Below are positions 13,450-47,222 of a stretch of DNA of 64,000 bases, piece by piece. The stretch comes from Seonamhaeicola algicola (GTDB lineage: Bacteria; Bacteroidota; Bacteroidia; Flavobacteriales; Flavobacteriaceae): contig NZ_VOSC01000012.1 of assembly GCF_007997385.1 (NCBI RefSeq), positions 186,001-250,000 of the forward strand, read 5' to 3'. Made by a program: the position numbers and the translations under genes. Numbering within the stretch: the stretch's first letter is position 1; the number at the start of each line of letters is the position of its first letter. The notes under the pieces are model-generated. The model had not been told where the DNA came from. It was given only the letters and a program-made list of their open reading frames with translations, and did no database searches.

Positions 13450-14583
13450 ATGATTAACAAGCGCCTACTTATTAAACACCTTTTGGCTCATAATGATGAA
13501 AACAGTTTTTATGACAAGAAACGAAAGGTTGATATTAGCCATAAAGAAGGAAAGGCTAAATTTTTAAAGCATATTTGTGCACTATCAAATAGCAACCCAA
13601 AAAATAATGCCTACATTGTAATTGGTGTTGAAGATGAAGATAATAACATTGTTGGTGTTGATTTTTTTGATGATAGCAAAATACAAAACTTAATTAACGC
13701 CTATTTAACAAGCCCACCCATAGTGCAATATGAAAACATTCCTTTTCCGCACTTACCCGATGACAAAGTTGTGGGGTTAGTTACCATTAGGCCTACAGGA
13801 AAACTTACATCACTCAGAAAAAATATTTGGAAATATTACGGCGGTTCAGTGTTTTTTAGAGATGGCAGCATGAGCATGCCCAAAGTGTTTGATATTGAAA
13901 TAAAAGATGTTAACTCTAAAATTGTTGAAGCTATTGAAAACAATGCCCAAAACAACATTGAACATACGCTAAATGGAGTTTTTGATTTTATGAATAAACG
14001 TAAAGACTACAATGCCAAATACAAAGTTTTTAAAGAGTATTTTGTACTATGCTGGAGCGGACAAAAAAAGGTTGTAAAAAATGAAACGTTTTTCTCTAGG
14101 GTTGATATTGAGTTGGTAAACGAACAAGTGCGCTTATTCTTTTCGGCGCTTGATGAAGTGTCAATTGTATACAACGAAGATAGTTTTAAAATTGTTGAGT
14201 ACGTTAATTTAGGACTTCAAAACAAACGAAAATATTACAAACTAGAAGAAACACACATTAAGTTTGAAAACAACGCTAATTACAACATAGAAACCAAACT
14301 TTTATTTGAGCCACCAGAGTTTGACAAAAAAGTACTGCACCATATATACAACACCAACAACACCATACTTAGTAAACTAAAAAAAGGGATTGCTCTAACA
14401 AAAAACGAAGAAGCAGACTTGCTAAACTTACCAGCAACTTATTTAATTTGTTACTTAAATTTATTTCATGATGCTATAAATAAATTAAAAGAAGCCAAAC
14501 CATATTTAAAACAACACAACTTAAAAGTTTATCAATTATACAAAGAAACCATGCGTATTTTACGAAAAGTGAAATACAGTTAA
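13450..14583 (+). CDS. AlbA_2/Schlafen-type putative ATP-binding protein
   Basis: 377 residues, soluble. The N-terminal 130 residues look like an AlbA_2 (Schlafen AlbA) domain: KAKFLKHICALSNSNPKNNA, YIVIGVEDEDNNIVGVDFFD and VVGLVTIRPTGKLTSLRKN. The remaining helical part I do not recognise. Proteins with this domain include nucleic-acid-binding regulators and nucleases, but the specific function here is unknown. It stands alone on the plus strand, divergent from the moxR operon, with a 227-bp gap upstream and a small RNA candidate downstream. Codon use looks like its neighbours. Confidence 0.72.
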   Translation: MINKRLLIKHLLAHNDENSFYDKKRKVDISHKEGKAKFLKHICALSNSNPKNNAYIVIGVEDEDNNIVGVDFFDDSKIQNLINAYLTSPPIVQYENIPFPHLPDDKVVGLVTIRPTGKLTSLRKNIWKYYGGSVFFRDGSMSMPKVFDIEIKDVNSKIVEAIENNAQNNIEHTLNGVFDFMNKRKDYNAKYKVFKEYFVLCWSGQKKVVKNETFFSRVDIELVNEQVRLFFSALDEVSIVYNEDSFKIVEYVNLGLQNKRKYYKLEETHIKFENNANYNIETKLLFEPPEFDKKVLHHIYNTNNTILSKLKKGIALTKNEEADLLNLPATYLICYLNLFHDAINKLKEAKPYLKQHNLKVYQLYKETMRILRKVKYS

Positions 14584-14620
14584 TTTCTCACAAAAATTAA
14601 CCTTTAGTTAACGTTAAAGC

Positions 14621-14651
14621 TTTGCTAATAATAAAAAACACTTTACTTTTG
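14621..14651 (+). promoter_or_regulatory. Consensus Bacteroidota promoter for a small RNA
   Basis: TTTG at 14621-14624 and TACTTTTG at 14644-14651 are exactly 19 bp apart, an exact match to the Bacteroidota sigma consensus at both boxes. The only plus-strand structure downstream is a hairpin with a T-tract ending near 14724; there is no plus-strand gene. An imperfect palindrome around gttaac lies just upstream (14603-14620). Confidence 0.75.
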
Positions 14652-14656
14652 CAATG

Positions 14657-14724
14657 CTATTAATCTTTTTAAGATATAACCTTGTTTCTCCCATAAAATT
14701 TGGCACTGAAGCAAGGTTTTTTTT
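14657..14724 (+). ncRNA. Candidate small RNA, about 65-70 nt
   Basis: Predicted from its borders. Transcription should begin about 6-7 nt after the TAnnTTTG box and end at a hairpin with stem aaccttgtttc (14678-14688) and gaagcaaggtt (14708-14718), 11 bp with one G-U pair, a 19-nt loop rich in single-stranded purines, and a run of eight T (14717-14724). There is no open reading frame of note. On the minus strand the hairpin is not followed by a T-tract, so it is not the terminator of the convergent DUF1501 gene. Alternatively it could merely terminate the gene ending at 14583, but that would not explain the perfect promoter between them. Function unknown. Confidence 0.65.
14678..14724 (+). 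terminator. Intrinsic terminator at the end of the small RNA candidate
   Basis: An 11-bp stem with one wobble pair and a 19-nt loop, followed immediately by eight T on the plus strand. The loop is longer than in ordinary terminators and may have a function of its own. The U-run stops 3 bp before the end of the convergent DUF1501 gene. Confidence 0.75.
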
Positions 14725-14726
14725 AT

Positions 14727-15917
14727 TTATATAAAATGCAATTGTTTAAATGATTTTTTAAGTACTTTTTCATCATTTACATCTAACCATTTATTTAAAA
14801 CTGAAGCGTAAATAGCTCTAAAGTCTATTTCAAATTTTAAATCGCCATTAGCATCTAAATCTTCCAAATTGGCCATATTGTTATATAAACCAGGTTTACG
14901 CAACTGATTACCAATAATAAATAAATTATTAGCAGCACCATGGTCTGTGCCAGCGCTACCATTTTGTTTTACACGCCTTCCAAATTCTGAAAAGGTTAAA
15001 ATTAACGTATCATTAAAGGTGCCACCTGCTTGTAAATCTTTAACAAAAGCCTCAACAGCTTCAGCATACTGACTCAACAAGCGTTTTTGTGTACCCAACT
15101 GGTTTACATGTGTATCAAACCCATTTAAAGCCGCATAATACACTTTAGTTTCTAAATGCGAATTAATAAATTGAGCCGTTGTTTTTAATTGTTTACCAAA
15201 TTTATTTGAAGGATATTCTATGTTTGATGATACGGTTTTGCTAGATTCATAAATATATTTAGCTGATGCATGTGCTTCAATCATAGATTTATATAAATAC
15301 CCTAAATTATGTTCATTTAAATGCGCATCATTTTGATGGTTATATAAGTTTTTAAAATACGGGTCTCTAGATAAATTAAATAGCGCTTTGGCATCTTGTG
15401 TGGCAATGGCATTGGTGGTTTCACCTTTCATGGCTAAAGATAAACTGTCGTTAATTTCAATGGCAGCATATGGTTTTTGGCCATAATAATCTAAATACCT
15501 ACCAATCCAACCACTTTGCGAATACTCATTAGCATTGGTTGCTGTTTGCCAAATATCGGTAGACCTAAAATGCGATCGGTTTGGGTTTGGGTAGCCCACA
15601 TTGTTTATTATTGTTAAAAAACCCTCATCATAAAGCCTGTTTAAAGGTGCTAAACTAGGGTGCAAACCAACCTGATTTGTAAGCTTTAAAACATTGTTTT
15701 TAGCAATACTTAATGTGGGGCGTGCGTTGTAGTAAGTATCATTTTCAAATGGAATTACGGTATTTAACCCGTCGTTTCCGCCAGATAATTGAATTATTAC
15801 CAAACGTTTATACCCTAAACTTGCACTAGCAACATTTTCAAAAGCTTTAACAAAACTTGGTACAAAAAATAAACTACTTGCTAATGATGATTGTTTTAAA
15901 AATTTTCTTCTATCCAT
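14727..15917 (-). CDS. DUF1501 domain protein (exported, Tat-like leader)
   Basis: About 396 residues from the ATG at 15917; an upstream in-frame GTG at 15926 is less likely. The leader (MDRRKFLKQSSLASSLFFVP) has twin arginines and a hydrophobic core like a Tat signal. The body shows DUF1501 traits, a sulfatase/alkaline-phosphatase-like fold: LVIIQLSGGNDGLNTVIPFE, NVGYPNPNRSHFRSTDIWQ, TFSEFGRRVKQNGSAGTDHG. Its start is 2 bp past the stop of the DUF1800 gene, so the pair is co-transcribed. The two families almost always occur together in Bacteroidota and Planctomycetes; their biochemical role is unknown. Confidence 0.9.
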   Translation of the reverse strand: MDRRKFLKQSSLASSLFFVPSFVKAFENVASASLGYKRLVIIQLSGGNDGLNTVIPFENDTYYNARPTLSIAKNNVLKLTNQVGLHPSLAPLNRLYDEGFLTIINNVGYPNPNRSHFRSTDIWQTATNANEYSQSGWIGRYLDYYGQKPYAAIEINDSLSLAMKGETTNAIATQDAKALFNLSRDPYFKNLYNHQNDAHLNEHNLGYLYKSMIEAHASAKYIYESSKTVSSNIEYPSNKFGKQLKTTAQFINSHLETKVYYAALNGFDTHVNQLGTQKRLLSQYAEAVEAFVKDLQAGGTFNDTLILTFSEFGRRVKQNGSAGTDHGAANNLFIIGNQLRKPGLYNNMANLEDLDANGDLKFEIDFRAIYASVLNKWLDVNDEKVLKKSFKQLHFI

Positions 15918-15919
15918 AA

Positions 15920-17299
15920 TTAACACATTTGATATTCAGGTAAAGACATTAATTGCACACAGTATTCTTGCTTTGAAACCTTTTGCAATCCGTTTAAATA
16001 ATTTTTGGCTACAGGCGAAATGTTACAAGCTAAAACATAGTGTTGCAAGTGGTTTATATCAATATTTTTAAAATGTTTATTGAAGTAGTTCCAGTTACTT
16101 TCAACATTAAAACGCTTACCAAAATTCTTTTTAAAATAGTTCTTTTTTTGCGCCATTAAAACATCTGATGCGCCTTCTTCTGTTTTAGAAATATAGGCAC
16201 TGTTTAATAATAACGATGGTAATTTTAAACGCATGGTTATGGTATTACTATCTATCCAGTTTTTACCACCTTTCCAGCCCGCAACATTTGGCGGATCTAA
16301 AAGCACTTGCCCTAATAAACGCTGCAAATACAATAATTGTTTTTGGTTTTTAAATGTGGTTGGCACTAATGTTTGTATACCAACTAATAGCTCTATGGGC
16401 GATTTAATTTTATTACCAATATTTTCTTCAGCATAAAACCATTTAGAGCTACAAACATGACGCATAAGCGCTTCAATATTATAGTTTTTATAAAACACTT
16501 GTGTCATTTCTTCAACATGTGCTTTGTTTATAACGTCATTTACGTAGTAGCGGTACAATTTTTCGCAAATGTATTGCGCACAACGCTTTTGGTTTAAAAT
16601 AATATCAACAATATTGTTTCCTTGGAAGTTGCCAGTTTGCCCAAAAAATGTTTTTTCACCATGATCATGCAAACGTTTTCTAAACAAAGAATTGCCTTGT
16701 AAATCATGTGCATACCCTGTAAAAGCTCTTGCAGCCTCTTTTATATCTTGCTCAGTGTAATTACCAACACCCAAAGTAAAAAGCTCCATAAGCTCACGGG
16801 CAAAATTTTCATTAGGTTTTTGCTTTTTATTTTGCTTAGTGTTTAAATACTTTGTCATGGCAGCTTCTTTTGAAACCGCATTTACAAAGTCTTTAAAATT
16901 ACCTAAAGCGTGTTTACGCAAGGTATTGTGATATTTTTGAGTGTATATATAATTGTTGTCTTCGCACACAAAATGATTAGCCCAAAAAAGTGTCATTTTT
17001 TCACGTACTACTTCTGTTGAGTTACTCATTCTATCAATCCACGCCACATTAAGTTTTGGTGTTAATTGCCTACTTAACTTTTGAATTTCACGCAGATTTT
17101 CTTTTGCCGTTACATAAGAATCTCCTATTAAAGCTTTTAATTTTGAAGTATCTTGGGTTAATGGTGTTATGGTTTTTGAAGCATCAAACAAATTATTTAC
17201 TATTTGCTTTTTACTTTTTTTAGAAATTTCATCTAATTCACTAGGTAAAATACCAAAACCTAAGCGCCTGTATAAATGTAAAATATGTTTTTGCTCCAT
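15920..17299 (-). CDS. DUF1800 domain protein
   Basis: 459 residues, helical, without a clear signal peptide. DUF1800 hallmarks are visible: HLYRRLGFGILPSELDEI at the start, MTLFWANHFVCEDNNY, NENFARELMELFTLGVGNYT around residue 165, and the LGQVLLDPPNVAGWKGGKNW segment near residue 330. Function is unknown. It is directly upstream of the DUF1501 gene in a two-gene operon; partner proteins may form one envelope complex. The gene is complete, of normal length, with no frameshift. Confidence 0.9.
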   Translation of the reverse strand: MEQKHILHLYRRLGFGILPSELDEISKKSKKQIVNNLFDASKTITPLTQDTSKLKALIGDSYVTAKENLREIQKLSRQLTPKLNVAWIDRMSNSTEVVREKMTLFWANHFVCEDNNYIYTQKYHNTLRKHALGNFKDFVNAVSKEAAMTKYLNTKQNKKQKPNENFARELMELFTLGVGNYTEQDIKEAARAFTGYAHDLQGNSLFRKRLHDHGEKTFFGQTGNFQGNNIVDIILNQKRCAQYICEKLYRYYVNDVINKAHVEEMTQVFYKNYNIEALMRHVCSSKWFYAEENIGNKIKSPIELLVGIQTLVPTTFKNQKQLLYLQRLLGQVLLDPPNVAGWKGGKNWIDSNTITMRLKLPSLLLNSAYISKTEEGASDVLMAQKKNYFKKNFGKRFNVESNWNYFNKHFKNIDINHLQHYVLACNISPVAKNYLNGLQKVSKQEYCVQLMSLPEYQMC

Positions 17300-17386: not shown

Positions 17387-17417
17387 AAAAGCTGTTTCAA
17401 AAAACGAAACAGCTTTT
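17387..17417 (-). terminator. Intrinsic terminator of the OmpA/HhH operon
   Basis: Arms aaaagctgtttc (17387-17398) and gaaacagctttt (17406-17417) form a perfect 12-bp stem with a 7-nt loop. Read on the minus strand it ends in a T-run (17390-17384), 25 bp after the stop of the helix-hairpin-helix gene. Confidence 0.85.
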
Positions 17418-46909: not shown

Positions 46910-47114
46910 CATTTTAAATTTTTGTACAAACAGGAATTTCTTTTTTATACTTTCTTATTTAACCTGGGTTTTAGTTATTAGCAATGGGCTGCCTTTAAAC
47001 AAAAACTATAGTTAACGTTTTTGTTATGAATAAGAGTATCTAGTGAATTTTTATGATACAACAACACATACAGTAAAATAGTTTGTGTTGAAAACTGTTA
47101 TGTTGCTGCGCTTT

Positions 47115-47222
47115 GCGTTAGGGATTGAAACGACATCCTTTTTATTGTATAGTGGCTGCCATAGCAGACATTATATAATAAAAAGATATAGTGTAAAGCC
47201 CGACCCCTTGTGGGTAACGCCC
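47115..47222 (+). ncRNA. Candidate three-stem structured RNA
   Basis: Closing stem gcgtta (47115-47120) with taacgc (47215-47220). Inside is a long hairpin with arms ctttttattgtata (47138-47151) and tatataataaaaag (47172-47185), 14 bp with one wobble, extended by ctgc/gcag (47156-47159/47164-47167). A second hairpin has accc (47203-47206) with gggt (47212-47215) around a short loop. The purine-rich gggattgaaac and aaagcccg stretches lie at the junction. The layout fits a multi-branched RNA. I recall similar elements as scattered repeats in flavobacterial genomes but cannot name an Rfam family. A terminator follows at once. Confidence 0.6.

Follow-up and report, generated by a model that had tools for sequence, protein, structure and literature searches.

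Small RNA regulation has been little studied in the Flavobacteriaceae. Among the closest described systems, FopS/GibS of Bacteroides thetaiotaomicron (RF04319) are, in the available part of the published account, multicopy small RNAs with a conserved seed in the single-stranded 5′ part; RbpB binds FopS, whose repression of susC-like mRNAs acts at their translation start (PMC11697453). For Rfp18 of Flavobacterium psychrophilum, the accessible portion of the source names the third stem-loop as the pairing region (PMC9723704).

The locus described here lies in the window (the whole 64,000-nucleotide stretch of Seonamhaeicola algicola DNA that was analysed) and is almost certainly a small RNA gene of the Flavobacteriaceae: a predicted plus-strand transcript would run from 14656 to ~14724 (~69 nt, in agreement with the 65-70 nt of the initial annotation). 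As far as the partial account of FopS goes, both are multicopy RNAs of Bacteroidota with a housekeeping-type promoter and a single-stranded 5′ part followed by a Rho-independent terminator, the seed role being a proposal in the present case. The two differ in that the invariant part of the window RNA begins at its predicted first base and, by the same partial account, in that FopS pairs with translation start regions, whereas the exact complements noticed for the window RNA are mostly at 3′ ends. The FopS covariance model (RF04319) run over 14550-14800 gave only 27.1 bits against a 56-bit cut-off (E 0.025), on the minus strand at 14570-14641, over the promoter. Like Rfp18, as presented in the part of the source available, the window RNA is a conserved Flavobacteriaceae small RNA beside protein genes; unlike Rfp18, which has three stem-loops (the two were compared by description only), it has a single terminator hairpin, joined at most by a weak 5-bp mini-hairpin, and its conserved part pairs weakly or not at all. 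Flavo-1 (RF01705) is likewise a structured RNA of Flavobacteria and differs from the window RNA in sequence and structure; a search of 14550-14800 with its model returns nothing up to E 10. The Rfam search that had been suggested as a check brought no family to its cut-off at the locus, and at gathering thresholds the window yields only Flavo-1, elsewhere (47110-47209, plus strand, 53.4 bits); sub-threshold matches from a permissive scan of 14550-14800 (FopS, atoC, snoR09 and others) were taken as chance. No report of the window RNA was found in the literature searched, which lay outside subscription journals and supplements. The locus adds a gene, a start predicted to the base, an invariant 10-nt element and possible partner genes in many genera. 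Another Flavo-1 is present in the same genome just 5′ of tmRNA (L212:859-937, 973-1368).

Direct reading finds the promoter boxes, the 11-bp hairpin, the 19-nt loop and the eight T residues where the initial annotation had placed them (Table 1), with a 19-nt spacer between TTTG and TACTTTTG. In F. psychrophilum promoters, the available part of the source puts TAnnTTTG at −12 to −5 (PMC9723704); because the −7 box of the window RNA stands 4 nt before the decamer, the decamer is expected to occupy +1 to +10. Transcription and its exact start we infer. How much of this promoter is kept? Across 68 aligned loci the −7 box is strongly conserved (A at −11 in 67/68, TT at −8/−7 in 68/68, G at −5 in 65/68), whereas TTTG is found 18-20 nt 5′ of it in only 13/90 copies: the idea of a consensus promoter holds for the −7 box, and for the presence of both boxes in the window, and weakens at the −33 box. 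An ORF scan returned no frame of at least 40 aa wholly within 14584-14726, as the absence of a protein frame had been asserted, and the plus-strand terminator indeed does not serve the DUF1501 gene, which is convergent in the window; the downstream gene varies between relatives, as befits a separate small RNA gene. The marks of a trans-acting small RNA gene are present at the level of sequence: a predicted promoter of its own, no coding frame, a predicted intrinsic terminator and conservation beyond the species.

Table 1. Features of the small RNA locus and flanking genes (window coordinates)
Feature	Position	Strand	Basis and remarks
−33 box, TTTG	14621..14624	+	Direct read; weakly kept beyond close relatives
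−7 box, TACTTTTG (consensus TAnnTTTG)	14644..14651	+	Direct read and 68 aligned loci
5′ decamer, GCTATTAATC (predicted +1 to +10; proposed seed)	14656..14665	+	Identity across copies given in the text
Variable linker	14666..14677	+	Weak 5-bp mini-hairpin possible, includes last decamer bases
Terminator hairpin	14678..14718	+	Arms AACCTTGTTTC (14678-14688) and GAAGCAAGGTT (14708-14718); loop 14689-14707
T run, predicted transcript end ~14724	14717..14724	+	Direct read; model R1 match 14656-14723
Upstream gene, SLFN_AlbA_2 + DUF5929 protein	13450..14583	+	Pfam PF04326, PF19351; marks syntenic position
Convergent DUF1501 gene	14727..15926	−	Pfam PF07394

The terminator stem has 11 pairs, one of them G-U, and two of the eight T residues fall inside it. 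The plus strand from 14653 to 14730 has a folding energy of −17.0 kcal/mol, whereas shuffles average −8.5 (z −2.9), 2/200 of them folding as well; a simple terminator scan, which allows loops of 3-8 nt only, did not list the hairpin. Covariation of the stem, proposed earlier as a check, bears it out: two-sided changes occur in 10/11 pairs, the eleventh never varying, and 92.4% of cells are paired with 41 two-sided compensatory cells, values that 0/500 shuffles reach. The long loop had been put forward as a target-binding region, and here the alignment points the other way: loop sequence and length vary between relatives, a short apical stem is often found inside, the linker varies too, and the invariant part is the 5′ decamer. 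Elsewhere in the window, a strong two-way terminator-like hairpin is seen at 17387-17417, between a DUF1800 gene and the next gene.

How widely is the RNA kept? A 201-bp region was matched in 7/7 genus genomes, so that the refuting condition set initially, a lack of conservation of boxes and hairpin in close relatives, did not arise. A syntenic set of 87 loci was assembled from the window and 86 relatives, the best 80 of 577 relatives of the upstream gene being taken; the relatives bear the labels Algibacter, Flaviramulus, Flavivirga, Psychroserpens, Winogradskyella, Tamlana, Mariniflexile, Hyunsoonleella and others. The exact decamer lies within 400 nt of the stop codon of the upstream gene in 68/87 loci, and a covariance model, R1, built from 67 of these 68 and biased toward exact decamers, finds 90 copies downstream of the same gene in 78/87 loci and none in the examined stretch of the other 9. 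The decamer (GCUAUUAAUC; GCTATTAATC in Table 1) is identical in 89/90 of these copies, found with a model seeded with exact decamers, and reads GTTATTAATC in the remaining one; several loci have two tandem copies of the RNA, and each duplicate retains the decamer. With the −7 box, the predicted 5′ end and the terminator stem kept in many genera, and no coding frame, the separate plus-strand gene first proposed from the window's letters finds support. At E ≤ 0.01, R1 matches 79/249 family genomes; a class-wide draw of 149 genomes gives a match in the own genome and, beyond it, in a single further one (E 9.8e-4). Spread by mobile elements or phages was considered and dropped: viral contigs gave 27 stretches of TTTG-N4-12-mer, mixed and mostly coding by eye, of which R1 matched one, weakly (E 0.08). 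In some relatives another gene separates the small RNA from the SLFN gene, and at L045, L048, L052 and L080 (near 4.75 kb) this gene seemingly has the decamer in its own leader (minus strand, by eye).

We have hardly any doubt that the decamer is functional, but what does it do? Literature searches with the exact decamer and its complement returned no work on bacterial small RNAs, going by title, among the matches listed. Its abundance in the own genome (22 copies against 1 of the reversed sequence) was set aside as evidence of enrichment: base composition predicts ~16 by our estimate, and positional and control-decamer tests were used for this reason. Of 149 family genomes, 58 carry the pattern TTTG-N4-decamer, at 103 sites in all; the reversed pattern yields 6 sites, and TTTG-N4-complement has 20 in 148 genomes. 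When the gap between TTTG and decamer is varied from 0 to 14 nt, a gap of 4 accounts for 37/150 matches listed, the other 14 gaps averaging 8. Among the 90 of these 103 sites that were read, 80 have A at −11 plus TTTG; an automatic sort divides the 90 into 38 RNA-like sites with a terminator (21 of this RNA and 17 other), 36 leader-like, 9 coding and 7 unsorted, to be read with the caveats that L172 is sRNA-A by sequence though filed under other terminators, L161 resembles a peptide leader, L156 is filed as coding despite a terminator, and the leader status of L121, L159 and L189 is doubtful.

Such placement would suit an element that acts in the DNA, as initially transcribed sequence or an operator past the −7 box, recognised by RNA polymerase or by a clade-specific regulator; the element would then co-regulate small RNAs and mRNAs, and the RNAs would act via other parts. 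The fixed 4-nt spacing from the TTTG of the −7 box, the strand preference at promoters (103 vs 20 sites) and the sharing of the decamer by RNA-like and leader-like sites all speak for this reading, which we nevertheless consider unlikely. Terminator-side complements, in the cases inspected by eye, have no −7 box 4 nt before on the other strand, so an initiation element fails to explain them; the linker and loop of the RNA are unconserved, so little else would be left to act.

The leader-like sites invite another reading. An AUG follows at +24 to +27 in 29/36 of them; they include leaders of curlin-repeat proteins (L147, L192; PF07012), many precede small proteins (~44-51 aa) whose N-termini are signal-like, and the glmS leader of the own genome begins with the decamer (L117; TIGR01135). 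The 5′ decamer might be the site of an RNA-binding protein, with the small RNAs as decoys and the mRNA leaders as regulated targets, in a CsrB-like or GlmY-like logic: the same-sense decamer in RNA-like sites and mRNA leaders, the position of the AUG, the identity of the leaders (curlin-repeat genes and glmS) and the tandem copies at several loci speak for such a protein, but a reader of single-stranded GCUAUUAAUC leaves the recurrence of the complement unexplained, and we rate this account as quite improbable. If the decamer were a DNA or protein-binding element, it would define an unrecognised regulon that includes glmS and the curlin-repeat genes. That the locus merely terminates the SLFN_AlbA_2/DUF5929 gene or forms its 3′ UTR, the promoter having arisen by chance, fits its position downstream on the same strand and is otherwise very hard to credit: a terminator needs neither an invariant decamer nor a conserved −7 box, the RNA lies farther downstream in 9/78 loci (4.9-6.0 kb in the locus vs ~4.2 kb), with another gene intervening in several, and tandem duplicates each retain the decamer. 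Among the leader-like sites, L124, L137, L157, L158, L162, L170, L182, L191, L197, L204, L206 and others have a conserved decamer leader followed by a ~44-51 aa protein that starts like MKKLLLSVAALMFATLLFSQDD; where longer flanks were inspected by eye, a glutamine-synthetase-like gene lies upstream of such small-protein loci.

The reading towards which we lean, if only slightly, is that of a 5′-seed small RNA within a base-pairing network. A housekeeping-type promoter, TAnnTTTG, would start a noncoding RNA of ~69 nt composed of GCUAUUAAUC at the 5′ end, then a linker, short and variable, and last an intrinsic terminator. Its working part would be the invariant decamer, most likely a base-pairing seed, common to several small RNAs and to the 5′ ends of certain mRNAs. 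The partners would be RNAs that carry GAUUAAUAGC closely past stop codons and before terminators (for instance at the ends of the genes for alanine dehydrogenase, GalT, a PfkB-type kinase and a Dps-like protein), acting either as target mRNAs or as 3′-end RNAs that pair with the decamer RNAs. A seed is favoured because the decamer and its complement are each preserved in noncoding DNA and vary in step, whereas a DNA or protein element explains one half of this pattern. Sequence comparison shows the gene, the −7 box, the covarying stem, the invariant decamer, its recurrence in both roles and the 12-mer co-occurrence described below; pairing and the direction of regulation we infer. For the parts of this reading, the chances that the RNA works by base pairing appear about even, and those that the 3′-end complement sites are the partners somewhat lower. 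A plain seed, on the other hand, would have no need to stand in sense orientation at the 5′ end of mRNAs, as the decamer also does.

What is the evidence for the complement? Decamer sites on both strands were read in 7 genus genomes (127 of 193) together with sites of a control decamer of the same composition, CATTAATAGG (70 of 140). Sites outside long ORFs number 54/127 for the decamer and 2/70 for the control (Fisher 1.7e-10), and a terminator lies just downstream on the GATTAATAGC strand in 13/127 vs 0/70 (p 0.005), both p-values overstating independence because sites in related genomes are orthologous; on the strand opposite GATTAATAGC the figures are 3/127 vs 0/70 (p 0.55). The complement, GATTAATAGC, recurs shortly past stop codons, ahead of terminators: after alanine dehydrogenase (L273, TIGR00518; L279, L304 and L339 by end alignment), galT (L249, NF008724), a PfkB-family kinase (L251) and a ferritin-like/Dps-like gene (L347). 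With a limit of 80 nt to the upstream stop codon, the two orientations are equally common (20/127 on the GATTAATAGC strand vs 17/127 on the other); with one of 25 nt, chosen after seeing the data, they are 12 vs 2. One group of sites (T3: L099, L253, L266, L296, L310) was rejected as 3′ UTR sites, its position being upstream of an aminotransferase gene. Across genomes, copies of the 12-mer TTGATTAATAGC average 9.2 where R1 matches (79 genomes) and 1.3 where it does not (170), a statistic that ignores kinship, and the reversed 12-mer control has 0.44 and 0.25, respectively; as exceptions, 10 genomes without R1 have at least 5 copies and two with a strong R1 match have 3 or fewer.

Does pairing extend beyond the decamer? 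For a second decamer RNA, GCUAUUAAUCAGUUC with its own hairpin, kept in five genus genomes (L104, L332, L262, L276, L264), it appears to: its flank adds a mean of 2.98 pairs at 44 intergenic GATTAATAGC sites vs 0.68 at 73 coding ones (p 3e-10), and against shuffled flanks the extension has p 0.012, values that likewise overstate independence; the test omitted this RNA's own sites and promoter-type sites, and the copy in G003 stood for those in G005 and G006. The linker of the window RNA extends no pairing (mean extra pairs 0.16 intergenic vs 1.29 coding), leaving the decamer as its sole part that could pair with the complements. Duplexes predicted between the window RNA and five chosen sites range from −16.2 to −27.3 kcal/mol, part of the energy coming from terminator regions, and are not evidence by themselves.

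Should the decamer prove to be a seed, a pairing network open to direct testing is outlined by its strict placement at +1 together with the complements at 3′ ends. A broader proposal, tentative and on the unlikely side, is a genome-wide complementarity code in a clade of Flavobacteriaceae, in which the fixed 5′ decamer would have its exact counterpart, the complement, at the 3′ ends of genes. On the 5′ side would stand several small RNAs and the mRNAs of glmS, curlin-repeat genes and a small secreted peptide family; on the other, gene 3′ ends and at least one conserved terminator-ended RNA. The 3′-end RNAs would pair with the 5′ ends, the stand-alone decamer RNAs being targets or sponges, and a single word of 10-12 nt would link many transcripts.

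In group T2, GATTAATAGC is retained in a terminator-ended stretch beside fabH-like genes, across five genomes of the genus and G040, which belongs to a different genus; the stretch may be a separate small RNA carrying the complementary word. At its sites (L103, L252, L256, L269, L329, L440), the conserved noncoding sequence has a CGTCTAA-like sequence upstream, then GATTAATAGC and the terminator; the CGTCTAA-like sequence resembles ECF-sigma promoters. In the own genome, two neighbouring promoter-like sites (L222, L223; C30:24165, 24312) show GCTATTAATT and GCTATTAAGC, followed by hairpins, and appear to be additional related small RNAs whose decamers have diverged; at L212, 3′ of tmRNA, there is also a decamer-like RNA with GCTATTAATT, a hairpin and a T run. 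In genomes G001 and G002 (L315, L351), two intergenic decamers stand 32 bp apart, with more sites within 10 kb.
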